From assembly GCA_016946835.1 (NCBI GenBank), contig JACVTC010000045.1, positions 466,501 through 530,500 of the forward strand: a stretch of DNA of 64,000 bases. The letters run 5' to 3'. Below, in pieces: positions 13,501 to 64,000 of the stretch. Under the pieces are notes generated by a model. The model made no database searches. It saw nothing but the letters and a program-made list of their open reading frames with translations, and was not told the DNA's origin. This stretch comes from Neocallimastix lanati (nom. inval.) (lineage: Eukaryota > Neocallimastigomycota > Neocallimastigomycetes > Neocallimastigales > Neocallimastigaceae). Position 1 is the stretch's first letter; the number at the start of each line of letters is the position of its first letter. Made by a program: the position numbers and the translations under genes.

Positions 13501-16500
13501 CGGAGACTCTTAAAACTGGAACTGCCTATAAGTGCGATTATAAGAAGGAAAAATCTTCTGACAGTGAAGATGAAATAGAAATTGGATATTCTTGTGAATT
13601 GTTTAATAAAGCTAATGGATACTACTATGTTGAAGGAAATGTTATGTATGGAAATAATGCTAAATGGAAAGTAGAAACTGCTGATGGTTATTACTTCTTT
13701 AATGAAGATCATTTACCTGCTAAAATTTCAGAAGTAGATGGAATTGAGGATATTGATGAAATTAGTTCTAAATATAAAGTGTTAGGAAAGGCAGAAATAG
13801 CATATAATGGTAAATACTTAAATAGTGCTGTTCCAGCAACTACTAAAAATGATAAACCTATAATTATTGTAACTGAGAATCATGAAGGTGGTGTCTCCTC
13901 TGATAATTATCAAATATCAAAAGATTATAAATTGTGTGAGACTAGTAGTAATGGATCATGCAAATCAAGAAATATTGATGAAAGCTTAACTTCTGATGAC
14001 GTTTGTTATGACTTTAAGACAGGAAAACTTTATGTAGTTGATGTAATAACACTTGATGATGAAAGTCAAACCCAAAATATAATGTGCTATACTGGTAATA
14101 TGGATCATTATAAATACAAATTAATTGGTAGTACTTTGTATCAATTGGATGGATTATCTGTACAAAAAGTTGATAAAGGCTACTATATATTAAATAGTTC
14201 CATGGAGAGATTTAATAGTAATTATCCTGAAGTTCCATATACTATAATTTATTGTGAGGACGAAAGTTGTTTGGAAGTCACTGAAAAATTGAATAAAGAT
14301 CAAACCGTAATGGTTAATAATGCTAAAGTTGATAAATATAGTAGCTATGATATGTTAATGTATTATAATGAAAATACAGAAGAAAAGTTTAAAGATATTA
14401 GTAGTTCTGATAATAAATGCTATTGCTTAAATGTAGATTATGAGGTACCATCAACCGCTAGTGAGAATAATAGTTGTGAATATCAAACTGGAGATTGTTC
14501 TGGTGCAATTCATTTGAATTATGCAAGTACTGGAAGTAATATGATTTTAGAATCAAATTCAAATACAGATTCAGTAGATTTTAACTATAATTCAATTTTG
14601 GATGCTTTGGAATTCAAAGGGGAGTACAATTTGAATTCCAATAAGAGAGAGTTTAAATTTATTGATAAATATTTGTATTTATTATATCAGAAAAAAATGG
14701 TACGTCTAGTGGAAGAAGGTATTTATTTAATTTTAAATGGTGTTCCATTTGATAGTGATGAATGGACATCGTTAAGTGGAGATACTGAAGTATGTTACTA
14801 TACTTATCCAGGTTGCAATACTGATTATATTAAAACATATCGAAAGTATAAGTACAATTTGAATAGAGCCGTCAATGGAATTTCCATTATTGAATATGAT
14901 GAAGAAAGGGATATGTGGCGGACAGTGAAGGAGGATGGATTCTACTTCTTCTTTGTTGATGAGTATTCCATTACTGCTGAAGATCGTAGAGTTGAAGCTG
15001 TGTATGAAATAAAGAATGGTATTACTGAAGACGTTACCTCCACTATGAAGAATAATGGATTCCATATATTTAATGATTTAGTGGTTGAGAGAACTAGTAA
15101 GTCATGGGAAGATGGAGAAGCCGTTGTTGAAAATGTTGAAACTGAAAGTAGAAAGAAATGCAAAGCCATTGAGACGAATGACACAATTGAAAATGATGAG
15201 TTCTGTTATTCAGGAAAGAATGGTCTCTGTGTCGTCAAAACAATGTTTAGCGATACTATTGTCAATGCAAATAATTGTATGTTTGGTGAGGAGAAGCCCT
15301 ATTACTATATTATTGATAATACCTTATATATTGTTAATGATAAATCATACCAAAAAGTAAATAATAAAGGATTATATGTTATTGGTAATGATAATTTAGC
15401 TTTTGATGATAGAAAAGAAAGTCAAGCAAATGCCTACCTATGTGAAAATGGTAAATGTGAATTACTGAATGAACTCGAAACTCAATATTACTATAATAGT
15501 GCTAATGGTGATGTATTGTATTATAATGGAAATTCAAAATTATGGAAGAAGAACAATGAAAAGGGCGATTACTTCTTCAACGATTTAGGTAAACCTATTA
15601 ACACTGGAGAAACTATTGTTAATAAAGTAATAAATAGTAAAAGTAGTAATAGATATGTAAACAAGAGTAATCCAAATAAAAATATTATGGTAAAAAAAGT
15701 AAATAGTTTATATATTGCTATTGAAATTGCAGCATGTGAAATGAATGCAGGTATTATAAACTCAAAAATAAAGTTGAGTATTGGTGATAATTGTATTGCT
15801 GATGGAAAATTAATTTTGATTAGTGGCATTCAATCTAATAAACGTCAAGAAGAAGCAGAAGCAGAAGAATATAGTTACACAGGTTTTGAAATTGATGACG
15901 AAAGTACCACTGAAAAGATAATATATGATGAAAGTGAAAAGAAATTTATACGCGTGGTTGGAAATATTGTAACTGATATTGATATCCCAACAGGAACGGT
16001 AATTTTGAAAAAAGAAGATTCATCCATATTAAGTGGTTATGAACCGACAGAAGCTGAAGCCTATGATTGCAATAAAGAAAAGAAGGTATGCACCTTGATT
16101 GACAATGAGAATTTAGTGATTGATAAATTGTATGTAAATGCCATCAGAAACAATGAATTAGTGAAGTATATTGGAGAAGGACAATGGAAGGTACATGATG
16201 AAATCGGATACTACTTCTTTGACAGTAAAATTAATCCGGTTACTGAAAAAGCTATAGCTCAATACGCCTATGAAATATACAAAGAAAATGGTAAAATTAT
16301 TCAAAAAAGTATTATTGACGAAAATATTGTTGGTTACTTCTTAAATAACGCAAACAATAATAAATACTTAATAAGCAATAATAGCCATTATTGGTCTAAA
16401 GGTACTTTGATGCATGCATGCAATGTTACAGTTGTTGAAGATGGTATTTTATGTAAGACGAATAATGAAACTATTTCCTATGCTACAGGAGATTATTGTT

Positions 16501-19136
16501 ACAAATCCTCCACTAAAGAAATCTACCTTTTGCTTAGTGAGGCAAGTATATCAAGTGAAAGCGCCAATTGTATTTTAGCTAGTAATAGTCAACCAAAATA
16601 CATAGATTCCAGTATGATTGGACATGAACTTAATAATGTTGAAGTTAATAATCGTTTGATTGAATTAACTGGAAATGCTATCAGACCGGCTAAAGCAGGA
16701 TATTATATTGTTGACGGAAATTACACACTTACCGACAATAATAATGAAGAAACAGAGACCACCATATACAGCTGTACTAATTCCGAATGTGAAACGATTG
16801 CAAATCTTGAAGATGGAGAAAAGATAATTGTTAATGATGGTACCATGTTTGAAGTTGATGAAGAAGGACATTTAAAGAAGGTCACTGAAGATGGTCTTTA
16901 CTTCTTTAATTCCGAAGGAAAATTGTGTACAAATGAAGAATGTACCATTTCTGAAATTATTAGAATCACTGAAGGAGTATCTGAGGTGATCGAAAAAGAT
17001 TTATTAAAGGAAGGTATATATGTAAATGCTGGTGATAAAAAATCAGTAGGTATTTATGATGGTAATGATTGGAGTATTTCTTCATTAGAATGTACCTATG
17101 TTGAAAGCAGTAAGAGTTGTAGTAATGATGATATTGAATTAGGTATTGGTAGTTATTGTATCGCAGATGGAAAAATATATGTTATCTATGAAATTAATGA
17201 GGAAATGAATGAAAAGAAATGTATTCCAGGAAGTGATGAGAAACCATTATATATTACTAATGTAAATGGTGAATTAATGAAAATTAAGAAGGAAAACATT
17301 GAAATAATTGAAGTTGAAGGTTATTATGCATACAATGCAAAGACATTGGAAGCCCTTTCATCTGAAGAAGAAGTAGAAAGTAAATTAGTTCGCTGTAATA
17401 ATGAAAAATGTAGCATAGTAATTCCAAGTATTGGAAGCTACCTTAACAAATCACCAAATGAAAGTAATATTGCTCAATTTACTGAGAATGAGGTAGGTAA
17501 AGCAAAAACTATTGAAAAAGAATGCAGTGTCAATGGTGAATCCTGTACTGTCAATGACGGTAATAGTTTAAGTGTCGGTGATATTTGTATCAATGAATCC
17601 ACTCTCTATTTAGTGGATGAACAGAGCAAATGTTATATGGTGGATAGAAATATAGATAACTACAGAGTAGTAGGTGGAAAATTATATATGTTAGCCGATG
17701 ATTCAGTTATTCAGAAATTCGATGGATACTACTTCCTTAATAAAATGAATCGTGCCATTACTAATAAGAAGGAATATAGTGAATCAGGTGTTGTTGGCTA
17801 TATGTGTAGTAATGTAGGTGACTGCTTCCAAATTCAACCTCGACCAGATCGTCTATATCCTGATTACACCACAAAGAAAGGTAATAAATTTACTGTATTA
17901 AGATTTGATCCGGATAAGCTCTCTAAACGTGATGAAGGTAGTAGTGGCTATGAATCAATTACTGAGGAAGGTATCTTCAAAATGGATGATGGAAGCTATG
18001 CAGAATGTGAATTTGATAATAATGATGAAATTACCTGTCATAACATTGAAAATGTCGGAACTTACAAGAGTGATGTCAGTGAAACTGGTGAAGGTGAATT
18101 GATTAATTGTACTAAGAATGAAGAAGGTGAAATTGAATGTATAGAAGCTACAGAAGGTGGTTACTACGTTGTGAATGATAACTTGGTGTCCTGTGTTCCA
18201 AATGAAGATAAGAACGAATTAATTTGTAGTGATATGGATAAGGAAGGTTACTTCATTTCAAACTCTAATGGTGATCTCTACAGATGTGATGAAATACAAG
18301 AAACAGAAGAAGTAGACACCGCCAGTATAAGTAGTGTGTTTGAAAAATTGGATGCAATGAATATAATGATAAAGCGCAGTGAAGAGGATCCTTTACCACC
18401 GGATACAAATCCAGTTCAAGAGGATACAAATCCAGTTGAAGAGGCAGAAAACGAAAGTAATGATAGTACCAGTACTATTGAAGAAACAACAGCAACTACA
18501 GAAGTACCAAATCCAACGCCAACGCCAAAAGATGTATCATGTGCAGTGGTAAAATGTGAAAACGAAAATGAAAAGATTACCTTCTTAACGGAAGAAGGTG
18601 AAAAAGAGTTGTATATTTGTAAGAATGTAAAAACAATTGAACCTGAAACGGGTGAACCAAATACTGAAGAAGAAGAAAAAGAAGAAGATATGAGATGGGT
18701 TGCTCAAGGAGATTGTACTTGCTACGTTATGTTAGGAGAATATTACAGTTGTGATGATGATAAGGGTGAAATTGAGAAGATTGATAAACCCAATAAAGAA
18801 CACACATCAACGAGTGCAGATTTCACCATAACTACAAAGAAAACTACGGTTACCGCCACCACAACAACATCGACGACAACTGAAAATGCTACAAATGAAG
18901 CATCCACAACTGATAAATCAACTTCCAAAACGAAGAAAGCGACTTCAACGACAACAAAGAAAAGCGAAAAAACTACGACAAGTACAACAGCAGGTGGAGC
19001 TACTAGTAAGACAACAACTACAACTAAACCAGCTGCTACTACCACAACAACAGGTGGTGCTTTATCAATAAGAAATATACCATCGTTTACTTTCTATCTT
19101 ATTCTTTTAGTTTTTACATATTTTATTTTATTATAA
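1585..19136 (+). CDS. Giant ScaA-like cellulosome scaffoldin (anchored)
   Basis: Exon 1 is 1585-1642 (signal peptide MNNIKFLILLLVGFLGLNLG). A 115-bp intron follows (1643-1757, GTATGA...TTATAG), then one long exon to 19136; splicing keeps the frame. Mature N-terminus is acidic (ADADAEADKD). The body is dozens of degenerate repeats of roughly 30-60 residues, about GYYxN...LIxCxxxxCxxI. The end is a Pro/Thr-rich segment (about 18391-18530), a small Cys domain (18531-18790), a Thr-rich stalk (18800-19060) and a hydrophobic tail ending VFTYFILL, as in GPI or membrane anchor signals. This matches fungal ScaA scaffoldins, whose repeats bind the dockerins of plant-wall enzymes at the cell surface. 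Reconciled length is about 5,810 aa. Frame breaks at 8282-8286, 8726-8729, 8766-8782, 9436-9441, 10056-10058 and 10405-10425 interrupt it; repeat homology continues across each. Family call is strong; integrity is uncertain. Confidence 0.85.
1643..1757 (+). other. Intron after the signal-peptide exon of the scaffoldin
   Basis: Donor GTATGA at 1643, acceptor TTATAG ending at 1757. The junction splits a glycine codon (G|GA) and joins the hydrophobic leader to the acidic mature N-terminus. A leader exon plus short intron also occurs in the scaffoldin pseudogene at 39750-41416, which supports the model. Confidence 0.8.
8280..10430 (+). other. Frameshift cluster inside the scaffoldin
   Basis: Six frame changes occur in 2.15 kb. 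Five need one base removed: A5 at 8282-8286; A4 at 8726-8729; A5 or A4 at 8766-8782; near 9436-9441; GG near 10056-10058. The sixth, in an AT repeat near 10405-10425, needs one base added or two removed. Cys and GWY/GYY repeats continue across every break, for example GWYINSAYKYG in the third frame from 10063. No break is seen in the other 15 kb of the gene. The cause may be assembly error, decay or, less likely, recoding. Confidence 0.8.
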
Positions 19137-20080: not shown

Positions 20081-20770
20081 GGTTGGATAATTAATTTTAT
20101 TTAATATTTGTTGAATAATATGATTAATACCATATTTATTAGTATTATATGTATTTTTATTATAGTAAGTATAATCTACTCTGATTCGTGATATGGAATA
20201 AAATTTGAAATTTTGGATAAGCATTTTTAAGATAACTGTTTCCAGGATTGGATTTGAAAAAAACATCTAATCTTGATAGGATTATTTTATTAGTAGTAAT
20301 ATCTAAAATTTTATAAGCTGATAGATTTTCAGAGTATCCCTGGTTTAACATTGTTAACGAATTTTGATTTAAAGATTATAGATAAAAAAATAAATTTTGA
20401 ATACAAATAATTTAATATTTGGGTAGTTTATTTTATTTTATTAATTATTTCTTAAGGGATTTTCAGATTTATACTTTTTTATGGAATACGATTATGGATA
20501 TAAATAGGAGTAGATGTAGCATTTTCCCCAAAATTGGTACCTATTTTTAGAATCCCTCAGCATAGCTTTGACTGAATTTATTAAGGTGCCATTGAAACGT
20601 TCCATCCTTCCATTTTGTTGTGAATTATATTATACAGTTAGGTGATGTTTAATACCATAAGATTTGAAGAATAAAAAAAGTCATTATTACAAAATTTTCT
20701 ACCATTATATATTTAATTCTATTATTATACTTAATTTTAATAATTAAAAGCCAACTATAAAATGAATTAA
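20081..20770 (-). pseudogene. Ty1/copia integrase C-terminal relic
   Basis: Collinear with 58440-59160 of the copia element farther right. Read on the minus strand, both encode the second half of integrase: the NGR.ERFNGTLI-type segment, a KFWENATSTANYI-like stretch and SAYKILDITTNKII...PGNSYLK. Many stops and indels make it non-functional. It is cut at 20770 by a family-2 LTR fragment and at 20081 by a plus-strand family-1 LTR. Confidence 0.65.
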
Positions 20771-20950
20771 ATGTTATGAGTAATTTTATAAAATGTTTAT
20801 TAAGAATATTTTATAATAAAGATATTTCAAAGAGATAATTTTTTAAATTAAATTTATTTCACATTTTTATATCTTAGTTAATATTATTTAATTTACTTAT
20901 ATATTACTTGTTGACTGATATAAGTTAATAATATAAATAAATATATAAAC
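20771..20950 (-). repeat. Family-2 LTR fragment
   Basis: It matches the solo LTR at 48975-49244 from the GTTATGAGTAAT block through TTAATAATATAAATAAA. The TGTTAGAGAC end is missing or too diverged to see. It is the third copy of this repeat in the window. Confidence 0.5.
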
Positions 20951-47590: not shown

Positions 47591-50475
47591 TTATAAATAT
47601 TCATTTTCTAATTCAAAACCTAACTTTATTAGTTCATTTATAATTATTTTAATATTTGATTTCTGCACCAATGGATTTGCAATTACAACTCTAAAAACAG
47701 AAATACCATTCTTGCATTCAGGATATTTAGAAGTTTTAATGGTGGTCTTTGAAACAAATCCTAAACCTTCAGATTTCTGTTTTGCTTGTAATTTATCTAT
47801 AAATTTACTAATAAAATCATTTTCTGATAAACTGAAATGAAAATCATTTTCTAAATTTAAATTAATATTATCATCTTTTAAATAATTTGGTAAATTCTTA
47901 ATATTAGTTTTATTTGGGTTATTAGAAATTAAACTTTCATTACTGTTATTTAAAATATTAATATATTTATTATTTATTAAATTTAGTGAAAGTGGTGATT
48001 TGTTCTTATTTGAATTTTTTTTTGGTAAGCATGATGGTATATAACGATAAAGAAATATATTCGTAACAGGAAAACTAATTAATTCAAAATGAGGATTATT
48101 CTTTATTAAATTAGCCATATATTTTGCTTTTTCGCATGAAATTTCTAATAATTCATTTAGGCCATTTTTTCCCAATAAAGATAACGATGCATGTAAATAG
48201 AATACATTAGCTGGTCTTGAACCTTCTAAGGTAATTTTACCTTGATCAATTGAATTTTCTCTAATAATATAAGAAGCTACCTTTTTAATAGTTTTATATG
48301 GTAATAATGGAGATTTAAATAAAACAACACCACAACCCATAGGAGTATATAGTAATTTATGACCTTTAATGATATAATATTATTAATATATGTTAAAAAA
48401 TTACTAATTAATTATAAATTTAACTAAAACTTTTAAATTAAATAATTTTATTATTTAATTATATACCATCAATTGTAATTGTATCAGCTTTTTCAATTCC
48501 TTTTAATAAATTACAATAATTATCACTAAAGGCAAATGAACCTCCCCATGCTCCATCCACATGAAATAATGAATTATATTCTTTGGATAAATTTGATAAT
48601 TCTTCAAAATTATCTATTGAACCACTTTATTTAAATAAACAAATATAAATTTTAATATTAAACAATAAATATTTTTATATTATATTTTCGTTTAAAAATA
48701 ATTAAGAATAATAAATTTAAAATTTTATATATTTACACTTCTGTTGTACTAGCAATACCAACTATCGCAATTATTTTTATTTTTTTATCATATAATTCTT
48801 TTAACTTTTTTTTTAAAAGATCAATTCTAAATAAAAAAAATTTTGTAAATATTATATGAATTAATTTTAAATTAATAAATTATTAATATTTATATTTATG
48901 AAACAAAATAAGAAAAAATTAATAATTATGATATTTAAAATTTATTTTATTTACTTTATTTCATATTTTGAATTTGTGAAAAACAAATTTATAAATCTAA
49001 GACAAACACTGTATTAATAAAAACAATATAACAAAGTATTTTATGTTATGAGTAATATTATAAAATGTTTATTAATAATTTTTATTATGAGGATATATAT
49101 ATTTTTTCTAAGAGATATTTTTACATTAAATTTATTTCATATTTTATATCTTAGTTAACATTATTTAATTTAATTAAAGATTAATTATTGGTTGATATAA
49201 ATTAATAATATAAATAAATGTATGTAACGATTTCGTCTCTAACAGAATTAACGGGAATTGTATGTAAATTTTTTAGTCCTAATCCTAAAATATCTACTGC
49301 TTTTTTAAAAGAATAATGCATTAATTCTGATCCAACAATTGCAACACCATTATAACCATAGTATTTTAAAGCAGCTGGAAGTCCTTCTTTTTCAATTCCT
49401 TCGAAATCTTCTGTCTTCGGAAAAGCATAATTTCTTGCAATCCACATTGCTGTTAAATTTGCTATTGTTCCTCCAGATGTAAAACATCCTAAATAAATTT
49501 AATTATAAAAATTATTTTTATAATGAATTGTTTAAATATTAAAATAATATTTAATATAAAGATTTAATATGAAATTTAAATTATAAATTAATTAAAAAAA
49601 TTAAATTAATTATGCCAAAAGATAAGTTTTACCATATGAGAAATTACTAATTCCAATAGAATTTTTATAATATTCCTCTGATTGATGATAAAATGTTCTA
49701 TGTAAAATAGATAATACTTTCTTTTCTAAAAATGTTATTGTCGCCGAAGTTTCTTCCTTTACTAAATTTTGATTTAATGCAGTTACAAGTTTTGATATAT
49801 ATTTTTGAAAAAATGGTAATGAACTTGTCTTAAAATTTTTATTTATTAATATTATAATTATTATAAATTAATTATATATTTATAATTTAAAAAATTGTAC
49901 TTTACATTTATAATTATTTTAAATTAAATTTTTAATTTATTTAATTTTTGAAAAAAATTTTATATATAAACAATTTATATTTAATACCATATGACCAATC
50001 ATATTAGGTGAGGAAACTCTGGTTGATTTATCAATAACTTTTTCCTTAATTTGAATAAAATAATTGTAAATATTTTCAACATTACAGAGTAAACCTTTAG
50101 GAATGGAAGAACTTCCAAATTTTTTTTCAATTCGTCTAATGTACTTCTATTTGCAGCAAATACTGAAGGTGAAGGCCTATTAAATTCTAAAATTAAAATA
50201 AATTTTATGAATAAATTTATTTATAATTATTTAATATATTTAATAAGTATAAAATTAAAATTAAAATATTTCATTTACCATCTATTATTTTATCAATATA
50301 ATTTTGCAAATCCGATTCTTGTATTTGATTACCTAAAAAGTACTTTAATACTAATAAAATATAATAAATTTAATATACAGTAACTTCAAACTCATTTAAA
50401 ATAATATATATTCATGATAATACCATTATCACTTATGTTTAAGTTATTTTTTAAATCAATTTCTTGTAATACCAT
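47591..50475 (-). pseudogene. panP: PanP-type PLP-dependent aspartate 1-decarboxylase, disrupted
   Basis: Group II PLP decarboxylase closest to bacterial PanP, which makes beta-alanine from aspartate. Exons: 50475-50424, 50350-50279, 50186-49988, 49828-49633, 49488-48955 (split by an LTR at 48975-49244), 48826-48737, 48624-48467, 48363-47591. Family signatures in order: SPNMIGHMTSSLPFF, LVTALNQNLVKEETSA, GCFTSGGTIANLTAMWIARN, YYGYNGVAIVGSELMHYSF, IIAIVGIASTTEVGSID, FHVDGAWGG and the PLP lysine in TITIDGHK (Lys345). With the LTR and one duplicate GAATT removed, and one base added to the A8 run in exon 3 (about 50125), all phases agree and give about 599 aa, with an Asn-rich insert in the last exon. 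Bacterial-type protein with fungal introns suggests an old transfer. The A8 break could be a sequencing error; the LTR is real. Confidence 0.78.
48975..49244 (-). mobile_element. Solo LTR (family 2) inserted in panP exon 5
   Basis: 270 bp running from TGTTAGAGAC (49244) to TTTTTCACA (48975). It is flanked by perfect 5-bp target duplications, GAATT at 48970-48974 and 49245-49249. Removing it restores the exon to its donor site (48955/48954) in the right phase for the next exon. A lone LTR points to LTR-LTR recombination after insertion. Confidence 0.9.
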
Positions 50476-52980: not shown

Positions 52981-54293
52981 TTTAAGATATCTTAGTATTC
53001 TTACGACATTGTTCCAGTCTTCCATATTCGGATTATTTGATTTTCATGCTGCTTTACTTACCGAAAATAGAATATCAGGTCTGGTGCATATAGCAATGTA
53101 GAGTAAATTTCCTATTGCACTTCGGTAGGTAGTTTGATTAAACTTTATATTTCTAAGTTTGTCTTCCGTAATTGGTTTTGTATTCCTTAATGGCTTTTCA
53201 TTATTCATATTGAATTTTTCTAAAACCTCTATAATGTATCTTCTTTGATGCATAAAATATCCATTTTTGTGTTTAACAAATTTTATTCCGATAACGAAAT
53301 CCACGTCGCCAATTTCTTTTATTTTATATTTTCTTTTGAAATATTCTTTTATACATTTAATTTCATTCTCCTTTCCAGCGATTAAAATATCATCAACATA
53401 AATACCGACGATACATAAAATGTTTTTATTCTTACCATTTTTTACATATATAAATGGTTCACTTACCATTCTTCTAAGTCCTATTTTAGTTAGGAATTTA
53501 TTAATTTCTTTGTTCTATTCTCGATCGCTTTGTTTCAGACCATATATAGCCTTGTTTAATTTCCAGTATTTTCAATTAAAATCTGGGTGACCTTCTGGAG
53601 ATTTCATATAAATATCTTCACTTAATTTGGCATTAAGATAAGCAGCGTTTATATCAATTTGTTCTATATTAAAATTATTTTGGGCAGCAATTGAAGTTAA
53701 AATTCTGATAGAGTCGTGTTTTAACGTTGGTGCAAAAGTATCATGAAAGTCTATTCCAAATTCTTGGGTAAAACTTCGTGCTACCAATTTTGCCTTTCTT
53801 TTTGTTATCTCTTCATTCGCATTTCTTTTATATTTGAAAATCCATCATGAGGAAATTACATTGGCATTTTTAGTTATATATTTAATTGTATTAAATACAT
53901 TTAAGTTTTTCATATTACTTAATTCTTCATTTACTCCATTAATCCACTCTTTTCTATCAGTTAAATTTTGAATGTTTTTATAATTTTCTGGTTCTCTTAA
54001 AGTATTTATTTTCTTTCTTCTTTTGTTATTGTTTTCATTTATAATATTAATAGTTCTTTTTTTATTATTGTTCTCGATATTATTTAATTTAAATGAATTG
54101 TTATTAGTAAATAAAGTATTTATAATTTCTTTTTCATTATGTTGAATATAATTATTATTGATAATTTTTTTTTCATTTACTCTGTTGTTTTCAATATTAT
54201 TATTGTTATTGATTGTTTTATTGGCTGTGTTATCATTTATTATATTATTAGTATCTTCTCTATTTTGGCTATTATTATTATTTTCAGTATTAT
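52981..54293 (-). pseudogene. Copia reverse transcriptase (part of pol)
   Basis: It begins in the Asn-rich integrase-RT linker, then shows the RVT_2 pattern: VNEELSNMKNLNVF, ITKRKAKLVARSFTQEFGID, FHDTFAPTLKHDSIR, QIDINAAYLNAKL, LNKAIYGLKQS and the catalytic box GIYVDDILIAGK, then YRSAIGNLLYIAICTRPDI. Four codons are now stops: an Arg-like position before WIFKYKRN (about 53846), a Trp-like position after GHPDFN (about 53572), a Trp-like position after KQSDRE (about 53519) and one after SVSKAA (about 53044). The first three fit single transitions. RNase H is missing. Confidence 0.88.
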
Positions 54294-54500
54294 TGTTAGA
54301 AACAAAAATAATAAGATTTATAGTTATATTATTTAAAGGAGTAATGTTATATAAATTAATATATTAGTGTAAGATATGTGACCAATAGTAACAAAAAGCC
54401 ACATATTATTTTTACTATAAATACTATAAAGAAGTATAAAATTATGTATATATACTATTCTTTATTCTTATATAATAAAAAGAGATTTATACTTTTCACA
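54294..54500 (+). repeat. 5' LTR of the nested element
   Basis: 207 bp, TG...CA. Identical to the 3' LTR except for one A/G difference in the TATGTATRTATAC stretch. Confidence 0.92.
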
Positions 54501-54534
54501 GATTAAGAGTCTCAACTCTTCAGTTGAGCTATCC
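54501..54534 (+). promoter_or_regulatory. Primer binding site for a half tRNA-Lys
   Basis: GATTAAGAGTCTCAAC...GAGCTATCC directly follows the LTR. Its complement reads as the D arm and anticodon arm of a lysine tRNA (GGATAGCTC...GAGACTCTTAATC, anticodon CTT) and ends just past the anticodon loop. A normal primer site would match the acceptor 3' end. The pattern fits half-tRNA priming, as known for Drosophila copia. Confidence 0.75.
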
Positions 54535-54837
54535 ATAAAGCTAAGTTGAAATATATAAAATATAAAATCATTTAAATATAAAATTATTACTAATCAAACT
54601 AATAAATATATATTTTTATTATTTTTATAAAATTTATTATAGAAGCAAAACGTAATAACCAATATCCATAAGAAAATATTACAGAACAATTGTAAGAATG
54701 TTAAGGATATAAAATTTAAAATAAAATGCTTATTGTAATAGGTCATAGTTATTATTAATTATTAAAAATAAAAAATGATATAAATACATATACATATAAT
54801 TAGATAAAAAGAAAATATTAAAATAAAATAATAGTCA

Positions 54838-55095
54838 ACTAGTCTATCTAAGTTGAGAATTATTGAAAATAAAAAATAAATGTCAACTAGCTAAGCTGTG
54901 AATAATTGATAATAGAATAAAAATAATTGTCAACTAGCTAGGTTGATTAACAATAAAAATAAAAATAATTATTGATTAGTTTATCTAAGTTGTAAATAAT
55001 TAACTATAAAATGATTGTCAACTAGATTAACTAAATTGAAAATAATAGAAAATAAAAATAAAAATAATAGTCTAACTAGTGAAGTTTTGAATAAT
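54838..55095 (+). repeat. Tandem GTCAACTAG leader repeats
   Basis: Six degenerate units of about 45-60 bp begin near 54838, 54883, 54931, 54971, 55018 and 55070. Each has GTCAACTAG followed by a partly complementary CTAAGTTGA-like stretch, so each can fold into a small hairpin. The same set appears inverted at about 62980-63265 in the host element's leader. Confidence 0.75.
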
Positions 55096-56299
55096 TAAAT
55101 TTAAAATAATAGTCATTTTAAGTTATTAAGACTAAGAATTATCAATTACAAATAATCTGTTTATTCAAGTTAATTAATAATAACAATTTTTAACTAAATA
55201 TTAATGAAACACATAAAATAAAAAAATTAACAACTAATTGAAAAAGAGACAAATAAAAATGATTTATAAAAATTAATATTAACATTAATAAATAATATAA
55301 ACATAATTTATTTTTAATATAAATAAATATATAATTACTAAAATAATAAAATTATTAAATATTAAATAATATATCCTTACACACAAAATCCGTTCTGACA
55401 TTATACAATTCAAAATAATTTAAAAGATATAATATACATTTATTATGAATCAACTTAATTTTTAATATACAATAAAATACCATCAAGAAAAATTAACAAG
55501 TAATTAACGTTGAAACTAGAAACAATCCACAGAAAATATAATAATAGAAATTTTAATAATTAAAGTTTTACACTAAAATTTTAACAAATAATGTTCAAGA
55601 AATAAATTAAAATTAAAGTATCCGAGAAATTATTTTTAACAAAACTTTTATAATCAATAAAATTTTAATTTATTATAATATTTTTATTTAATATATTTCA
55701 AATTTTAATTTATAATAATTTTAAAATGACTAATTATATCAATCTATTAAAAATAATATTAATGATTTATTAAATTAAAATTAAATTAAATTCAATCAAT
55801 AATATAAATTTCATTATTTTTGCTAAACTTTAATCAATAATATTTAATACATTCCATCAATATTAATAACAATTTAAAATATTTTTAAAAAAATTATATT
55901 ATTAATAATATATAATATTTATAAAAATCTAATCTATCATTTATTAATCTAAATTTTGTTAAATCTCGAAACTTGATATTTAAAATATTTATATAATTTT
56001 TTTATAACATATTTATTCATATAAAACCCATTTATATATATCATTAACAATAATAGGGAAGATTAAATTTAGATAATCTATATAAAAAAATTTAAAATAT
56101 ATTATTTGAATTATTTATTATTCTCCAAATCAATGCTTAACATCTAAACATAAATGGGAATCATATATATATTTATATATAAAAAAGAAGTAGGAGATTT
56201 AAATGCTATTAAAAATATGATCGTTAATACCAGAAAACCTATGAATAGATTTGGAGGTATTTTATAACTAATAAATACATTTACCAATAAAAGATTTTT

Positions 56300-56587
56300 T
56301 GAAAAAGATTTTTTTTATGAAATTAACTCATTTATCCGATGAATCTTCGCAATGGTGTTTTAATATTATTGAAAATAAGAAGTTACGTTTATCCTTCGCA
56401 ATTTATTATTATTTAAAAGATATTACTTTGAATTAACAAATAAATGACAAATGCGTTGTAGATTTTGAAACAGTGTTATATTTATTTTATAAAAATAATA
56501 ATTAATTTAATGGAGATATTCTAGTAATACATGATGACAAATACAGCATTTTATCAAATGAATTAAATTTTATTATTTATAATTAGT
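56300..56587 (+). pseudogene. GT8-like glycosyltransferase fragment captured in the LTR element
   Basis: One frame reads SSQWCFNIIENKKLRLSF, YYYLKDITLN, a stop, then NDKCVVDFETVLYLFYKNNN, a stop and FNGDILVIHDDKYSILS. This aligns with the GT8 domain of the gene at 33063-35099 (LNDEFVIGFETMLYSFYKHNNWFNGDILVMYDDNYNILS), the stop falling on Trp. Similarity is partial, so the donor was a relative, not this gene. A 25-A run follows directly (56588-56612). Confidence 0.75.
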
Positions 56588-56809
56588 AAAAAAAAAAAAA
56601 AAAAAAAAAAAATAATAATAATAATAAAAAACACACATTATTTAAATACAGTTATATACAATACTCTTAATATAATCAATATATATATAAAAAAAAAAAA
56701 AAAATAAATATTATATTAGTATAAATGTAATAATCAACAATAAACCAATATTATAAATTATATATTGTTATAGTTTTGTAATTTTTTTTTATTTATTTTC
56801 AGCTTGCTT

Positions 56810-57042
56810 TAATCAGGCTTTTAAAGAACAAGATAATGCTCAGTTTGGCTTTTTCTAACCAGTTAAAACTGTTGATCCAAAGGTTGATACAACTATTGAT
56901 ATACTTAATAGATTGAAGAAATATATCAAACAACCGAAGACAATATTAAAAAGATGATTAATTGTATGAAAACCACTATGAACGAAACAAAAGCAATTTG
57001 CCTTTGTATCTAAAGATGCAAAATCAAAAGGAGATAAAGTTG

Positions 57043-57075
<33 letters not shown>

Positions 57076-57532
57076 GATAAATCTTGTTAGTTATTCTTTA
57101 AGTTCAAGTTCTAAAGATATTAATTATTTATACTTACCTGTTATGGAAAACTTCCATGAATGGCTAAAAACTTTCTTAGATAAAACTATTCGTGATGCCG
57201 AAGATTCTGTTTACAATTATAATAATGTTCATACTGAAATGGATATTACTACTCAAATGATTGCTCAAACAAAATAAAGATTAAGTACCGAAATTAATGG
57301 CATTCAAGAATGTAGACGTGCTATCTCAATATTAAGGGAACATGAACAATTATAAAATAAAGAAGGATAAATATGAATTATTATGTGAAGAAGTCATTAA
57401 AAATATTGAATTATTAGAAGCTAAGGGTAAGGCTGATATACCAAATTACCTTCAATTTATGTATGATTCTATGAATATTTTCTATCATCAAACAATAAAT
57501 TATTTCCCAGAAAGTGATTCATATAAATAAAA
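56810..57532 (+). pseudogene. Possible BAR-like coiled-coil gene fragment captured in the LTR element
   Basis: After an acceptor-like TTTATTTTCAG, several frames encode one amphipathic protein: VDPKVDTTIDILNRLKKY, FVSKDAKSKGDKVV, a 26-A run (57048-57073), LPVMENFHEWLKTFLDKTI, DAEDSVYNYNNVHTEMDI, INGIQECRRAISILREHE and KKDKYELLCEEVIKNIEL, ending NYLQFMYDSMNIFYHQTINY. Long helices ending in a FxxxxxxFYxQTIxYFP-like element recall BAR or sorting-nexin BAR domains. Stops and frame changes show it is dead. That a cellular gene is present is likely; the family name is tentative. Confidence 0.35.
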
Positions 57533-57800
57533 AATAATAATAATAATAAAATAAGATAAAAAGACATAATAATAATTTAAGTAAAGAAAGATTAATAAAT
57601 AATTTTAATAATAAAAAAATAACTCCAATCCAATTTGAAAGTAAGGGGAAACGTTAGAATTTAAAGTATATAAAAAAATTTCTTAAGTTTACAAATAAAA
57701 ATAAAAATAATTCTTTTCATATACTTAATAATATGTTAGTTGTATTATTATTAAAAATATTATTTTATATAGTAATACATTTGCAATATTTCTCTTCAAC

Positions 57801-57835
57801 TCTAACTTTCACCCAAAGTTAGATTTGAGGGGGAA
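57801..57835 (+). promoter_or_regulatory. Hairpin and polypurine tract before the 3' LTR
   Basis: A perfect 9-bp hairpin (TCTAACTTT / AAAGTTAGA, 57801-57823) is followed by the purine run GAGGGGGAA (57827-57835) directly before the 3' LTR. The purine run is where plus-strand DNA synthesis is expected to start. Confidence 0.8.
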
Positions 57836-58042
57836 TGTTAGAAACAAAAATAATAAGATTTATAGTTATATTATTTAAAGGAGTAATGTTATATAAATTA
57901 ATATATTAGTGTAAGATATGTGACCAATAGTAACAAAAAGCCACATATTATTTTTACTATAAATACTATAAAGAAGTATAAAATTATGTATGTATACTAT
58001 TCTTTATTCTTATATAATAAAAAGAGATTTATACTTTTCACA
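57836..58042 (+). repeat. 3' LTR of the nested element
   Basis: 207 bp, TGTTAGAAAC to TTTTCACA, followed by the ATTAT target duplication. Confidence 0.92.
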
Positions 58043-60059
58043 ATTATTATTATTATTTTCAATATTATTATTACAATTATTATTTCTAATTTTATTATTA
58101 CTATTATTTATATTATTATTATTGATAAAATTTTTATTATTTGTATTATTTTTATTGAATATAATTATTATTTTTTATGTTATTATTATTAATATTATTA
58201 TTGTTTATATTATTATGACTATTTGAATTATTATTAATGAAATTATTGTTATGGTTATTATTATTGATATTTTCATTTTTATTATTACTATTATTGTTAC
58301 AGTGATTATTATTTCTTTGTTTTTTGTTATATTTTCTTTTATTCTTAGAATTATTTTTATTGATTATATCTTCCTATATAATTTGTATATTTGTATTATT
58401 TAATATTGGTGAATTATTTAAAATGTTTTCTGAATTAAAAGTTCATTAAAATCTGGATAATCAATTTTATTTAATCTTTGTTGAATATTATGATAAATGT
58501 TATATGTATTGGTATCGTATGTAATTTTATTATAATATGTATTATATGTATTATCTCCCCTGATTTAGTGATCCGGAATAAAATTTGAAATTTCAGATGA
58601 GCATTCTTTAAGATAACTGTTTCCAGGTTTGAATTCGAAAAGGGCATCAGATCTATATATTATTATTTTATTTGTAATAATATCTAAAATTTTGTAAGCT
58701 GATGGGTTTTCAGAGTATACTAGAAAAATTCCTGGTTTAGTATTGTTATCGAATTTAGATCTAAAGATTTTAGGAATAAAGAAATAAATTTTGCATCCAA
58801 ATACTTTAGTATTTGAGTATTTGACCTATGTTTTGTTAATTATTTCATAAGGTATTTTCATATTTATTCCTTTTGTGGAATGCGTTATGTATATAGTTAG
58901 CCGTAGATGTAGCATTTTCCCAAAATTTGTAACTAATTTTAGAGTCATCTAGTATTGCTTTGGCGGAATTAATTAGGGTGCCATTGAAGCGTTCCACCCT
59001 TCCATTTTGTTGTGGGTTATATGGTAAAGTTAGTTAATGTTTAATACAGTAAGATTTAAAGAATAAATTAAAATTATTATTGAAAAATTCTGTACCATTA
59101 TCCGTTCGAATATATATAATTCTAGGATAATACTTATTTTTAATACTTAAAAACCAATTGTAAAATGAGTTAAAGGAGTCACTTTTAGATTTTAAAAACA
59201 AAGTCCATCCATATTGTGAATAGTCATCGAGGATTGTAAAAAGATATTTGTTACCATAAAGCGATTCAGGAAGAGGACCAATCAAGTCCATGTGATATAA
59301 TTCTAATATATGTTTCGACTTATTTATTGCTTGCTTATATGGTTTATTTTTAAGTTTTGAAATCATACAAATTGAGCATTGATTAATTGGTGTATTAAGT
59401 TTTAATAATTTGTTTTTAATATGACTAATATCAAAATGACATAATCTTCTATGCCATAAATTTAATCTCTTTGCTGCATTTAGTGTAGTGAAATTTATTT
59501 CTAAATTATTATGTTGATTGTTATTATTATTGAGATTTATTTTATTATTGGAAAACCAAATTTTAAATGTATTAGTCTTGGTAGCAGTGATGTTAACTAT
59601 TCTTTTATTGTTGCTATTGTAAATGATTGCATATGATTTATTATTTGAATTATTAAAAACAATTTTGTAATTTTCTTTTAGTAATTTGCATATGGATATT
59701 AAATTTTTATTGATTGCTGGAGAGTAGTATACCTCATTAAGTATTATTTCATTGTTGTTTACATACCTCTTAAATTTTCCTTTATGGACAGCTGTAATTA
59801 TTTTTCCATTAGCTAGATTAATTTCTTCATTACATTTTTTTATGTCTATTAGAAGATTAAGATTGCTTGTGATATTGATTGAAGCACCGGAGTCCAAAAT
59901 CCAACATGAAAGAAAGTTTTTGTCACTATCTTCATTTAAAAATTCTTTTTCAACGTTACAGTAATTTAATTCAATATTATTTTCTCTATTATAATCTTTA
60001 GTAAAGGCATCTGCGTATATTGTGCCATAATTATTTGAAGAGGCATCATTAATGTTCAC
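58043..60059 (-). pseudogene. Copia protease and integrase (part of pol)
   Basis: The open part (60059-59034) follows gag in the -1 frame. It contains the aspartic protease motif WILDSGAS (about residues 53-60), pre-integrase zinc residues (WHRRLCH...CSIC) and the integrase core (HMDLIGPLPE...LDDYSQYGW...RTDNGTEFF). A TAA at about 59034 interrupts it, but homology continues: LTLPYNPQQNGR, ERFNGTLINSAKAILDD, KFWENATSTANYIHNAF, SAYKILDIITNKII and KPGNSYLK. Below 58440 it becomes an Asn-rich linker, into which the nested element inserted. The protein is truncated and presumably inactive. Confidence 0.9.
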
Positions 60060-61033
60060 ATAATTAAAGAAAATTTTCTTTTGTTTTTAGTTCTTTTATT
60101 AAATTTATTTTTGTTTTGATTTTTATATAAATTATTTTTTCTAAATTTACATTTATAGTAGTAATGTCCTCTTCTTCCACAATAGTTACATCTTCCACTA
60201 CCCCTTTTGAGGCTTTTTCTTTTACCTTTATTTCTATTATTGTTTCGATAATTCTTACTCTTTATTGTTTCAGCATTGAAGAGAACATTATTGTTGTTTT
60301 CCTGGATGGAATATTTTTCTTTTAAATTAGATAAAACGATATTAGGGATGATTTCCTTAACATAGGAGCAGCATGATTCCCAACTCTTATGTTGAAAGAC
60401 GTTTATCCACCTTTGATTATCGGGTAAGCTTCTATTTAGAATGCCGATTTTTGTATTTATACTAAGGTCATTGTCAATTTTCTCAAGTTCGTCTATTAAA
60501 TTTTGCAAATTGGCAATGAATATATTTATATCGGTCTTGGTGTCAAACTTCATTGTTTCAATTTTGTTTTGGATTTCGATTTTTCTTCTTTCCTTGCTTT
60601 TGGTAAACGATTCTTGGAAGATGTTCCAAATTTGAAAAGCGGTCTTTTCATTTCCATTTATTAGTTTTCGTGTTTGTTCTCCAAGCCCATTTATGATAAT
60701 CCATTTGGCCGTGATGTCGTTAGTTATATCAATGTTTTTAGTGTTCTTTTCATAAACTAACGAACTATCAAATTGATCCTCCGGGTAATCTGTTAATTCT
60801 TCTCTTATATCTCTCTTTCTTAACTTCTTTACAATTGGATGAAGGACATATTTGGTTAATTTATTTATTGTTAGCAAATACAGAATTTTTCTTCTCCAAC
60901 CAGGGTAGTTTTCTGTATTTAGTTCAGTAATTTGGTTGAAATTTTCGGAATAATTAAAGGTTATTCCGTTATGTGTAATATCTTCTCCGGTGAGGTTGAT
61001 GACTTGTTCTTGGTTTCTTCTTCTTCCAGCCAT
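60056..61033 (-). CDS. gag: Copia Gag-like protein
   Basis: Intact 325-codon frame starting MAGRRRNQEQ at 61033. It builds the virus-like particle that packages element RNA. The central part has the copia Gag pattern (LNTENYPGWRRKILYLLTIN, AKWIIINGLGEQTRKLIN, TAFQIWNIFQESF, LQNLIDELEKID). The basic C-terminus has one CCHC zinc knuckle, CNYCGRRGHYYYKC. It overlaps the pol frame by 4 bases and pol is in the -1 frame. No classical slippery heptamer in the right phase is visible at the overlap, so a simple indel is as likely as programmed frameshifting. The frame itself is undamaged, unlike pol. Confidence 0.85.
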   Translation of the reverse strand: MAGRRRNQEQVINLTGEDITHNGITFNYSENFNQITELNTENYPGWRRKILYLLTINKLTKYVLHPIVKKLRKRDIREELTDYPEDQFDSSLVYEKNTKNIDITNDITAKWIIINGLGEQTRKLINGNEKTAFQIWNIFQESFTKSKERRKIEIQNKIETMKFDTKTDINIFIANLQNLIDELEKIDNDLSINTKIGILNRSLPDNQRWINVFQHKSWESCCSYVKEIIPNIVLSNLKEKYSIQENNNNVLFNAETIKSKNYRNNNRNKGKRKSLKRGSGRCNYCGRRGHYYYKCKFRKNNLYKNQNKNKFNKRTKNKRKFSLIM

Positions 61034-61539
61034 TTCGAATACTTTTGAAATCTTAAATTTTTATTATTATTTTAAATTAATTATAACTATTTTTTAATAT
61101 CTCAATTAATAAAAAATATTTTAGTAGTTTTTTTAAAAAAAATATTATAATATTTAATTCTGTTAATTTTTATTAATTTATTAGTATTAATTTGTTATAT
61201 TAAAAATTCTCATTTTAATTTTTACTTAAATTTGATTTCATTAATTTGTTACTATTTTTATCTCATTTAGTATTGTAATATCAAACTTTAATAAATAAGA
61301 CATTTATATTATTTAATTTATTATTAATTTTGATTAAATAAAAGGTGATTATTATTTGATTAGATTTTTAATTTTTTATTCATTGTTTAGTTTTATAATT
61401 TCATTTTAATATATTTGATATATTACATAATGTGATTTATTCAAAATTTTATTTAATATATATAATTAGTTTTTTTATTATTATTTTAATTTATTTATAT
61501 TTTTTATATTAATTTTTTAGTTTCAAATTTATCTAAATA

Positions 61540-61705
61540 CCATCAGTTGACTATTTATTCTAATCTTGATGATACTAGATTTAATTTAATTTAATATTAG
61601 TATCATCAGTTGACTATTTATTTATCATCTTGATGATACTATGTTTTTTTTATTTTTAATATTAATATCATCAGTTGACAATAAATTTTTCATCTTGATG
61701 ATATC
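61540..61705 (-). repeat. Three tandem hairpin repeats near gag
   Basis: Three units of about 55-65 bp, each with ATCATCAGTTGAC, an AT spacer and CTTGATGATA. The outer parts (AGTATCATCA / TGATGATACT) are complementary, so each unit can fold on itself. They lie about 500-670 bp upstream of the gag start. Confidence 0.75.
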
Positions 61706-61831
61706 ATTTTTATTTTATTTTAATAAATGGTAAGTTAGATTTTTATAAATATATATATTATTAATAATATAATTTTTTTTGAAAAAATTATAAATTGTTA
61801 TTAAAATTGATGTATTGGATTAAATATTATT

Positions 61832-62267
61832 GATTAAAGTTTAGCAAAAAAAAAAAAAAAAAAAAAAATAGACCTGCACGTATGGGTACCCATCTCCCAT
61901 ATGGCCATACAGTTATTAATTAACTGTAAGGTGATGAGTTATTGGCATACTGTATCAGCTTCGCCGCTCTGAATCGTCGTTACACACTGCCCGGAGATGC
62001 ATTCCTAACGTTCCTACATATATCTCTAATGACCACGAGCATCAGAACGGAACCATTAACTCCTCCCTAGTGGGTGTAATCATTGGCGATTGGAAATTTT
62101 ACAATCATCAAGATCTATGCTTCAATTCAAAGCGTAGTATCAGGGTTGGGTGAAATAATCATCTGAGGGAAAGCCTTATGGACATCACGTGTGGTCTCAT
62201 GATATCCCAGGATAGAAACCTCATCCGATTATTTGGTGCCATGCCGAGGATTAAAGTTTAGCAAAAA
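61832..62267 (-). mobile_element. GC-rich insertion with 19-bp target duplication and T tail
   Basis: GATTAAAGTTTAGCAAAAA occurs at 61832-61850 and 62249-62267. Between them are an extended A run (to 61868) and about 380 bp of near-balanced base composition (61869-62248). The other arm of the inverted repeat has the uninterrupted empty site at 55817-55835. The long duplication suggests target-primed reverse transcription; on the minus strand the element starts CTCGGCATGGC and ends ...GGTCTA plus a T run. The plus strand holds a hairpin (TACAGTTATTAATTAACTGTA region, 61908-61930). I find no ORF, tRNA, 5S or known SINE similarity by eye. Confidence 0.8.
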
Positions 62268-62437
62268 TAATTAAATTTATATTATTGATTGAATTTAATT
62301 TAATTTTAATTTAATAAATCATTAATTTTATTTTTAATAGATTGATATAATTGGTCATTTTAAAATTATTATAAATTAAAATTTGAAATGTATTAAATAA
62401 AAATATTATAATATATTAAAATTTTATTGATTATAAA

Positions 62438-62477
<40 letters not shown>

Positions 62478-63557
62478 TTTCTCGGATACTTTAATTTTAA
62501 TTTATTTCTTGAACATTATTTGTTAAAATTTTAGTGTAAAACTTTAATTATTAAAATTTCTATTATTATATTTTCTGTGGATTGTTTCTAATTTCAACGT
62601 TAATTATTTGTTAATTTTTCTTAATTGTATTTTATTGTATATTAAAAATTAAATTAATTCATAATATAGGTATATAATATCTTTATATTATTTTGAATTG
62701 TATAATGTAAGAACGGATTTTCTTTGTGAGGATATATTATTTAATATTTAATAATTTTATTATTTTATTAATTATATATTTATTTATATAAAAAATAAAT
62801 TATGTTTATATTATATATTAATACTAATATTAATTTTTATAAATCATTTTTATTTTTCTCTTTTTCAATTAGTTAATTTTTTTATTTTATGTGTTTCATT
62901 AATACTTAGTTAAAGATAGTTATTATTAATTAACTTGAATAAACAGATTATTTGTAATTGATAATTCTTAGTCTTAATAACTTAAAATGACTATTACTTT
63001 AAATTTAAATATTTAAAGCTTCACTAGTTAGATTATTATTTTTATTTTTTTTTCTATTATTTTCAATTTAGTTAATCTAGTTGACAATCATTTTATAGTT
63101 AATTATTTACAACTTAAATAACTAATCAACCATTATTTTATTTTTATTGTTAATCAACCTAGCTAGTTGACAATTATTTTTATTTTATTATCAATTATTC
63201 ACAACTTAGCTAGTTGACATTTATTTTTTATTTTCAATAATTTTCAACTTAGATAGACCAGTTGACTATTATTTTATTTTAATATTTTCTTTTTTTTTAA
63301 TTATAAGTATATGTATTTATATCATTTTTTTATTTTTAGAAAATTAATAATAACTATTACTTATTACAATAAGCATTTTATTTTAAATTTTATATCCTTA
63401 ACATTCTCACAATTGTTCTGTAATATTTTCTTATCGATATTGGTTATTACGTTTTGTTTCTATAATATTTTATATAAATAATGAAAATATATTTTTATTA
63501 GTTTGATTATTAATGATAAAATGATTTTTTATTTTATATAATTCTACTTAGCTTTAT

Positions 63558-63591
63558 TGATAGCTCAACTGAAGAGTTGAGACTCTTAATC
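63558..63591 (-). promoter_or_regulatory. Primer binding site of the copia element
   Basis: Directly after the LTR end the minus strand reads GATTAAGAGTCTCAAC...GAGCTATC, the same half tRNA-Lys complement as at 54501. Confidence 0.75.
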
Positions 63592-63783
63592 TGTGAATAG
63601 TATAAATCTCTTTTTTTTATTATATAAGAATAAAGAATAGTATATGTACAGAATTTTATACTTTTTTATGGCATTTATAGTAATCATAATATGTGGCTTT
63701 TTGTTACTATAGGTCACATATCTTACACTAATATATTAATTTATATAACATTACTATAAATCTTAATATTTTTGTTTCTAACA
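63592..63783 (-). repeat. 5' LTR of the copia element
   Basis: 192 bp, TGTTAGAAAC (63783) to ATTCACA (63592). It lacks a block of about 14-16 bp (TATATTATTTAAAGGAG region) present in the nested LTRs and has several substitutions, so the two elements are different subfamilies. Confidence 0.88.
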
Positions 63784-64000
63784 ATTTAATTTAAATTATA
63801 ATTTAACTTTATTTTAATTCAAACTCAATTAGTAGATTGAGACTCTTAATCTTTTAGACACACTAATATTTATATAATTAAATAATAGTTTAATTTATTT
63901 ATATAATAGATATTATATTATTTATTAATATATTTTTTATGAAAATATAACTGAAGAAAAACGTATTCATTTAGAAAGCTTTTATACATGAATATTATTT
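63784..64000 (-). mobile_element. Remnant of a further LTR element with primer site
   Basis: At about 63825-63852 the minus strand reads GATTAAGAGTCTCAATC...AATTGA, another tRNA-Lys-type primer site, preceded by AT-rich LTR-like DNA that continues to the window end. The copia 5' LTR thus appears to have inserted into the leader of an older related element. Confidence 0.4.

Follow-up and report, generated by a model that had tools for sequence, protein, structure and literature searches.

The 64,000-nucleotide stretch of the Neocallimastix lanati genome analysed here (contig JACVTC010000045.1, positions 466,501 to 530,500; hereafter the window) carries at 54294-58042 a recent insertion of a non-autonomous copia-type long terminal repeat (LTR) retrotransposon family, which we named E. 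Pieces of two host genes, one encoding a glycosyltransferase with a GT8 domain and one a BAR/Arfaptin-like protein, stand in E where gag-pol would be expected, and the introns of the BAR gene are missing from them. Our best explanation, in which a copia element related to another family (B) would have taken up host transcripts and then been copied in trans, is as a whole very probable, and E clearly adds a new example to a type of gene capture already known.

Structure and insertion site of E

The element is bounded by direct repeats of 207 bp on the plus strand, a 5′ LTR at 54294-54500 and a 3′ LTR at 57836-58042. They read TGTTAG...TTTTCACA, have TG..CA ends and differ at a single base (206/207 identical). 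An earlier sequence-only reading of this DNA had described this LTR pair and an ATTAT target duplication, and both are borne out, the 5-bp duplication lying at 54289-54293 on the left and at 58043-58047 on the right. An empty site is found in copies of the surrounding copia family (family A). The two flanks, joined after removal of one ATTAT (500 bases), give alignments that cross the join in all seven copia-A copies: 499-506 columns long at 85-89% in six of them and 447 columns long at 85% in the other, each interrupted by 3-6 small gaps. This stretch is a repetitive N-rich linker in which weaker off-register matches also arise. The insertion point of E is therefore the linker that separates the integrase and reverse transcriptase (RT) regions of a minus-strand copia element.

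A primer binding site, GATTAAGAGTCTCAACTCTTCAGTTGAGCTATC, adjoins the 5′ LTR at 54501-54533 (plus strand). Over its first 14 bases it is perfectly complementary to the anticodon region of the tRNA-Lys(CUU) found in this genome, and an 8-base part of it, TTGAGCTA, matches the D arm; the tRNA occurs at 73 genome places, all with TAGCTCAATCGGTAGAGCGTGAGACTCTTAATC. Half-tRNA priming is the mode of Drosophila copia, and the primer-site match fits our proposal that E may be primed in this way too. The pattern of LTR end plus primer site recurs at 69 genome places with up to 3 mismatches. The leader follows at 54534-55476 (plus strand), with repeated GTCAACTAG..AAGTTG motifs and 71% similarity to the family B leader. 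Both leaders fold better than shuffled controls (z -3.2 for E, -5.0 for family B), and the E leader may contain a packaging signal. A decayed remnant of a gag start without an intact frame (55477-55540, plus strand) shows 80% similarity, in an alignment of 88 columns, to the family B sequence in L030 where the leader ends and gag begins. At the other end, a 3′ tail (57623-57835, plus strand) closes with the polypurine tract GAGGGGGAA, which adjoins the 3′ LTR. The tail is present in 40/40 scored places, and the polypurine tract with the LTR start occurs at 61 genome places with up to 2 mismatches.

The claim that gag-pol had been replaced also stands. Matches to gag, integrase and RT at an E-value of 0.001 fall in the flanks of E copies and none inside, and the longest interior frame with a usual start is 62 amino acids. 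The Rfam scan of the window gave no match, and the tRNA scan of the window found no tRNA.

Copies of E across the genome

Searching the 199-Mb, AT-rich genome with the interior (56140-57835) gave 70 matches, and the best 40 of 403 candidate places were scored. Counting the window, at least 21 of these 40 retain 1,450 or more of the 1,696 interior bases at 90-100% identity; the leader as query gave 69 matches. We retrieved and read the 20 further places, at which full-length copies with the same captured pieces, as sought, were found. These copies support the proposal of the sequence-only reading that this is a recently mobile, non-autonomous LTR family with host gene fragments.

Both LTRs could be compared in 17 copies including the window; L030, L037, L039 and L046 were left out for having one, cut or diverged LTR. 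The LTR pairs of the other 16 copies differ by 0-18 substitutions, and in 6 of the 17, L043 and L044 among them, there is no substitution at all. A perfect 5-bp target duplication flanks 12 of the 17. L043 (contig C155) and L044 (contig C114) have the same flanks and are 99.95% identical over 5.8 kb; as they represent one site on two contigs, the number of independent sites is 11, not 12. Either duplication of the segment or the assembly of both haplotypes may account for this pair. Element length is 3.6-4.4 kb in 15 of the 17, and the other two, L035 (2.5 kb) and L048 (3.5 kb), are shorter through internal deletions.

The chimeric element was multiplied as a mobile family by retrotransposition. 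An assembly chimera or a later recombination of unrelated pieces at one locus, which the sequence-only reading had named as the finding that would undo it, has next to no probability: the same structure stands at at least 21 places, whose flanks, where read, differ except in L043/L044, and the copies together with the duplications at 11 independent sites refute a chimera.

An interior tree with midpoint root has two clades with full support, the window copy lying in the tighter one. A long form with about 440 further interior bases is found in L038, L039 and L041-L045. L047 is a short form within an otherwise mostly long-form clade, as if the loss of about 440 bases had occurred twice or been exchanged. 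Two further places are composite. In L030 (C90:845600-851500), a third copia family, represented by the end of its pol and the start of its LTR, passes directly into E (position 1774 onward), and the sequence continues with the leader end and gag of family B, giving a three-element recombinant. L053 (C212:116900-118900) is a decayed E relative with the same glycosyltransferase piece and, seemingly, an inverted copia fragment inside; together with C212:110604 and C212:120256 it suggests an old copy holding a nested copia A.

The BAR cargo lacks the introns of its host gene

The second degraded cellular gene of the sequence-only reading proved to be BAR/Arfaptin-like. Pfam gave only weak Arfaptin matches on the short window pieces, whereas the host gene L049 (C423:801500-805800) is clear, with a predicted 262-amino-acid protein and an Arfaptin-like BAR domain (PF06456, 74.3 bits, cutoff 32). 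Its three predicted introns, at 932-1722, 1802-2040 and 2503-2877, are all GT..AG. In the window, 56607-56800 (plus strand) corresponds to exons 1 and 2 of the 5′ untranslated region (UTR) with intron 1 absent, ending at the junction TTTTC/AGCTTGC; about 45 A-rich bases ahead of 56607 are not assignable to an origin with certainty. The coding part with part of the 3′ UTR follows at 56801-57622 (plus strand), 89% identical to the L049 coding exons. It has lost its start codon, lacks intron 3 and contains stops and frameshifts.

We aligned 50-base spliced junctions of L049 to the E copies. In the older copy L050 each of the three is matched over the exon-exon join (84%, 90% and 92%). In the second copy in L037, junctions 1-2 and 2-3 align (88% and 86%), and junction 3-4, next to a deletion, gives 31 aligned columns. 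In the window copy, junctions 1-2 and 3-4 align (86% and 87%). The exact absence of the three predicted L049 introns from L050 argues that the spliced mRNA of a donor-like gene was captured. The BAR homology extends into the 3′ UTR. The suggestion that unspliced sequence had been captured is contradicted by these precisely removed introns. It had been drawn from an acceptor-like TTTTCAG, for which the older copies provide another origin. L050 and the second copy in L037 keep a longer spliced 5′ UTR, the ATG and the next codons; in the young copies, including the window, the remaining 5′ UTR and the start codon were lost by a deletion from TTTTC to AGCTTGC, which created the motif. We therefore rejected TTTTCAG as a retained splice acceptor. 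An end of L049 intron 2 at 2175 was likewise rejected, as the older copies put the 3′ splice site after 2040.

The main rival for how this cargo entered is that a processed pseudogene, for example one made by a long interspersed nuclear element (LINE), already existed and that either recombination between DNAs or read-through transcription joined it to E. In its favour, the BAR homology ends on the 3′ side in an A-rich run, as a processed copy might show, and recombinant copia structures occur in this genome. However, A-rich runs are common in the genome, and the only BAR place recognised outside family E is the intron-containing L049 (among the best 40 of 403, most diverged or partial places being unread). 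We regard this route as unlikely and prefer capture from an mRNA by E itself.

The captured frame was broken before the sampled copies spread

Read in the L049 frame, all of the 23 E sequences compared (23/23) have a stop at codon 34; codon 167 is a stop in 20/22, and a 1-base deletion is common to 21/23. The loss of the frame therefore predates the spread of the sampled copies, and the family has been mobile without it. Differences among copies are spread over the codon positions at 34, 32 and 34% (pairs not independent), and the coding parts are 88.5-91.1% identical to L049. On this reading of the frame, the cargo is a dead, untranslatable passenger.

A functional cargo, either a translated BAR/GT fragment or an RNA regulating the donor genes, could draw on the BAR piece still being about 89% identical to the host gene and lying in sense direction. 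The shared stop and deletion, the start codon lost in young copies and the even spread of substitutions over codon positions all speak against a conserved protein. We consider a function of either kind very improbable, and the dead passenger remains our preferred reading.

A glycosyltransferase piece precedes the BAR piece

The captured glycosyltransferase piece lies at 56124-56560 (plus strand) and fuses a portion of the N-terminal region with the beginning of the GT8 domain across a deletion of about 140 coding bases. Pfam gave no match on the piece alone, and the assignment comes from the host gene L051 (C390:234600-236900), whose open frame exceeds 550 amino acids (a lower bound, as its end lies beyond the fetched part) and contains a GT8 domain (PF01501, 38.4 bits, cutoff 24.3). 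Through this paralogue the GT8-like fragment of the sequence-only reading is confirmed. The long form in L043 matches L051 at 81% over 527 columns in the N-terminal part and at 86% over 126 columns at the GT8 start; the window copy is without the further ~440 bases of this form, which were lost between CAAAT repeats. Further genome places match the long-form piece at 79-86%, and three of them were read (L051, L052 and L053). L052 is split into several frames, the longest of 342 amino acids. No intron interrupts the L051 open frame in the part that was captured.

Family B as relative and probable helper of E

The gag gene adjoining E in L030 has 21 matches of at least 94% over 263-277 amino acids, which we call family B. 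In 19 of the 21 the gag gene lies 0.9-1.2 kb downstream of the LTR-end and primer-site pattern; the remaining two are C90:845726, where an E copy interrupts the leader, and C555:792564. Family B gag matches PF14223, and the family retains long uninterrupted frames. Its 1.2-kb piece L063 aligns with E 200-1211 at 71% over 1088 columns (E-value 1e-154), in an alignment that runs from the LTR end via the leader into the first gag codons. E and B have the primer site, the leader and the last 8 LTR bases in common, and their LTR bodies are not alike. The similarity of leader and gag start points to the descent of E from a B-like copia element, and family B would most likely be the helper of E.

Another possibility considered is that the genome contains an autonomous element which has the E LTR and mobilises E. 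The searches scored only the best 40-150 candidates each, and at two of the 61 places with polypurine tract and LTR-E-like start (on C757 and C135) these lie on the same strand 4-5 kb downstream of a gag 65-69% similar to family B. Eight places with an E-type tail are absent from the interior list (C390:971184, C154:59466, C511:851505, C25:377348, C390:545205, C390:261050, C212:120034 and C212:227780), and none of these eight has RNase H within 1 kb upstream among the 150 matches listed. An autonomous element of this kind is possible, although we hold it to be rather doubtful, and family B is the helper that we favour.

The window itself contains family B sequence. A solo-like family B LTR at 48975-49160 (minus strand; 99.5% over 186 columns) lies between exon-like blocks, read by eye, of a decarboxylase-like gene on the minus strand, and weaker family B LTR matches are found at 20738-20881 and 240-358.

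Proposed origin of E

The ancestor of E would have been an autonomous copia element related to family B, from which the primer site, the leader and the decayed gag start were kept. Host mRNAs may have been packaged with copia RNA, and template switching during reverse transcription would have replaced gag-pol by host sequence, a route that we infer. In this way E could have acquired, through two captures, part of the transcript of a GT8-domain glycosyltransferase gene and, from the 5′ UTR into the 3′ UTR, the spliced mRNA of a BAR/Arfaptin gene. Having retained its cis signals (the LTRs, the tRNA-Lys half-tRNA primer site, the leader hairpins and the polypurine tract), E could later have relied for its copying on proteins acting in trans, with family B as their most likely source.

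Several observations weigh against this account. Five of the 17 two-LTR copies (L038, L041, L045, L047 and L048) have no target duplication; the LTRs differ by 14-18 bases in L038, L041 and L047, by 5 in L045 and by 6 in L048, which begins directly at the tail of another E copy. The introns of L049 are predicted from its sequence, and L049, at the identity to the cargo given above, may be related to the true donor as a paralogue. In the long form, the ~240 bases that precede the glycosyltransferase piece match no identified source. The LTR of E has little similarity to those of families A or B beyond that of shuffled sequence, the ends apart; for the bodies of LTR E and LTR B it is 47.6%, compared with 42.5% on average in 10 shuffles. 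No autonomous element with the LTR of E was found among the matches listed (best 40-150 candidates per search). As the two LTR bodies are near the shuffled level and no such autonomous element was seen, family B is not proved to be the helper.

A bolder version of this history has very little to recommend it in our estimation: a copia parasite in an early-diverging fungus-like genome would, like an acutely transforming retrovirus, have taken two unrelated host mRNAs (at least one fully spliced) and swapped its LTR to change helper, and sense BAR/GT RNA would now titrate or silence the donor genes.

The surrounding copia element and a second E copy

The copia element into which E inserted belongs to family A and occupies 52981-64000 on the minus strand, with gag at 60056-61033, a protease/integrase region at 59034-60059 and RT from 53044. 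The end of its 5′ LTR lies at 63852-64000. On the 3′ side it is broken near 52981, where RT ends, and beyond this point neither RNase H nor a family-A 3′ LTR was found. Family A gag is at least 95% identical in 35 of the 40 listed places and RT at least 91% in 39 of 40. An intact copy, read at both ends (L062 1005-1198 and L055 2966-3159), has a 194-bp LTR starting TGTTAAAATATATTTAC at each, with 100% identity over 194 bp. The family A leader differs from that of E, and no match of E to the family A 5′ region exceeds 162 columns (69%, located at the primer site).

The sequence-only reading had found E to agree with the host copia element in LTR, primer site and 1.45 kb of leader. What it had met is a second, 3′-truncated E copy at 61714-63783 (minus strand), which comprises LTR, primer site and leader (E 1-1660; E 1-1542 at 91% and E 1521-1660 at 89%) and lies in the host copia leader. 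The order in the window is the copia LTR end and primer site (64000-63780, 90%), the second E copy and the resumed copia leader (93%). The host copia as source of the E LTR and leader was rejected, as intact relatives have another LTR and leader. The view that E is nested in its autonomous relative thus holds for the nesting in a copia element, but family A, with its different LTR and leader, is not an LTR-sharing parent.

The second E copy is split by an insert of about 390 bp at ~61854-62248, which has a higher G+C content and a poly-A/T end and is flanked by a target duplication of about 22 bases (E 1521-1542 on both sides). It resembles a short interspersed nuclear element (SINE) or a small retro-inserted RNA and had no Rfam match.

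Relation to known gene-capturing elements

The closest precedent is maize Bs1, an LTR retroelement with segments of three host genes that a 2026 review presents as a new transcribed and translated chimeric gene (PMC13317346). Like Bs1, E is an LTR element with pieces of several unrelated cellular genes, and it appears to have the traits of this kind, namely identifiable cellular genes inside, precisely removed BAR introns and a multiplied chimera. E differs from Bs1 in being a copia-type family with at least 21 interior-bearing places, from which three donor-like introns are demonstrably absent, and in a cargo that was dead before the sampled copies spread, whereas the Bs1 chimera is described as transcribed and translated.

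A template-switching model of LTR-mediated retroposition onto host mRNA is given in PMC5408686, with reference to Tan and co-workers. Such retroposition resembles E in that host mRNA is joined to an LTR element and the product gains LTRs and can move again; E differs in being a multi-copy family without its own gag-pol. Within fungi, transduplication by DNA transposons of a histone H3 domain is described in Pyrenophora tritici-repentis (PMC3538342). That case is like E in that host gene fragments were multiplied by a mobile element in a fungus, and unlike it in involving DNA transposons and a histone H3 domain rather than an LTR element and a spliced mRNA.

Large retrotransposon derivatives (LARD) and terminal-repeat retrotransposons in miniature (TRIM) are, like E, LTR elements without coding capacity that are moved in trans. 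Unlike them, E has recognisable host genes as its interior and is mostly 3.6-4.4 kb long. TRIM elements are usually under ~1 kb, and we rejected E as a TRIM on the length of its two-LTR copies.

In the reviews consulted, LTR-retrotransposon gene capture is described mainly from plants and some animals. The literature search, which covered chiefly titles and opening parts of abstracts, yielded no host-gene-carrying LTR element from anaerobic gut fungi, which is no proof of absence in print. In this one genome, a donor-like gene with introns, old copies with the start codon and further deleted young copies are found side by side, so that the stages between a spliced mRNA and a mobile dead passenger can be followed one after another. 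E is also a test case for the cis signals (primer site, leader hairpins and LTR ends) that a copia parasite must keep for mobilisation in trans.

Further observations

Elsewhere in the window, 1742-8296 and 10437-19133 (plus strand) contain open frames of 2,185 and 2,899 amino acids with no Pfam match at an E-value of 0.001. In the genome, the 73 occurrences of tRNA-Lys(CUU), 37 on the plus and 36 on the minus strand, lie on contigs C94, C160, C188, C251, C266 and others; on small contigs they follow one another at regular intervals and in alternating orientation, as members of an inverted tandem array would.

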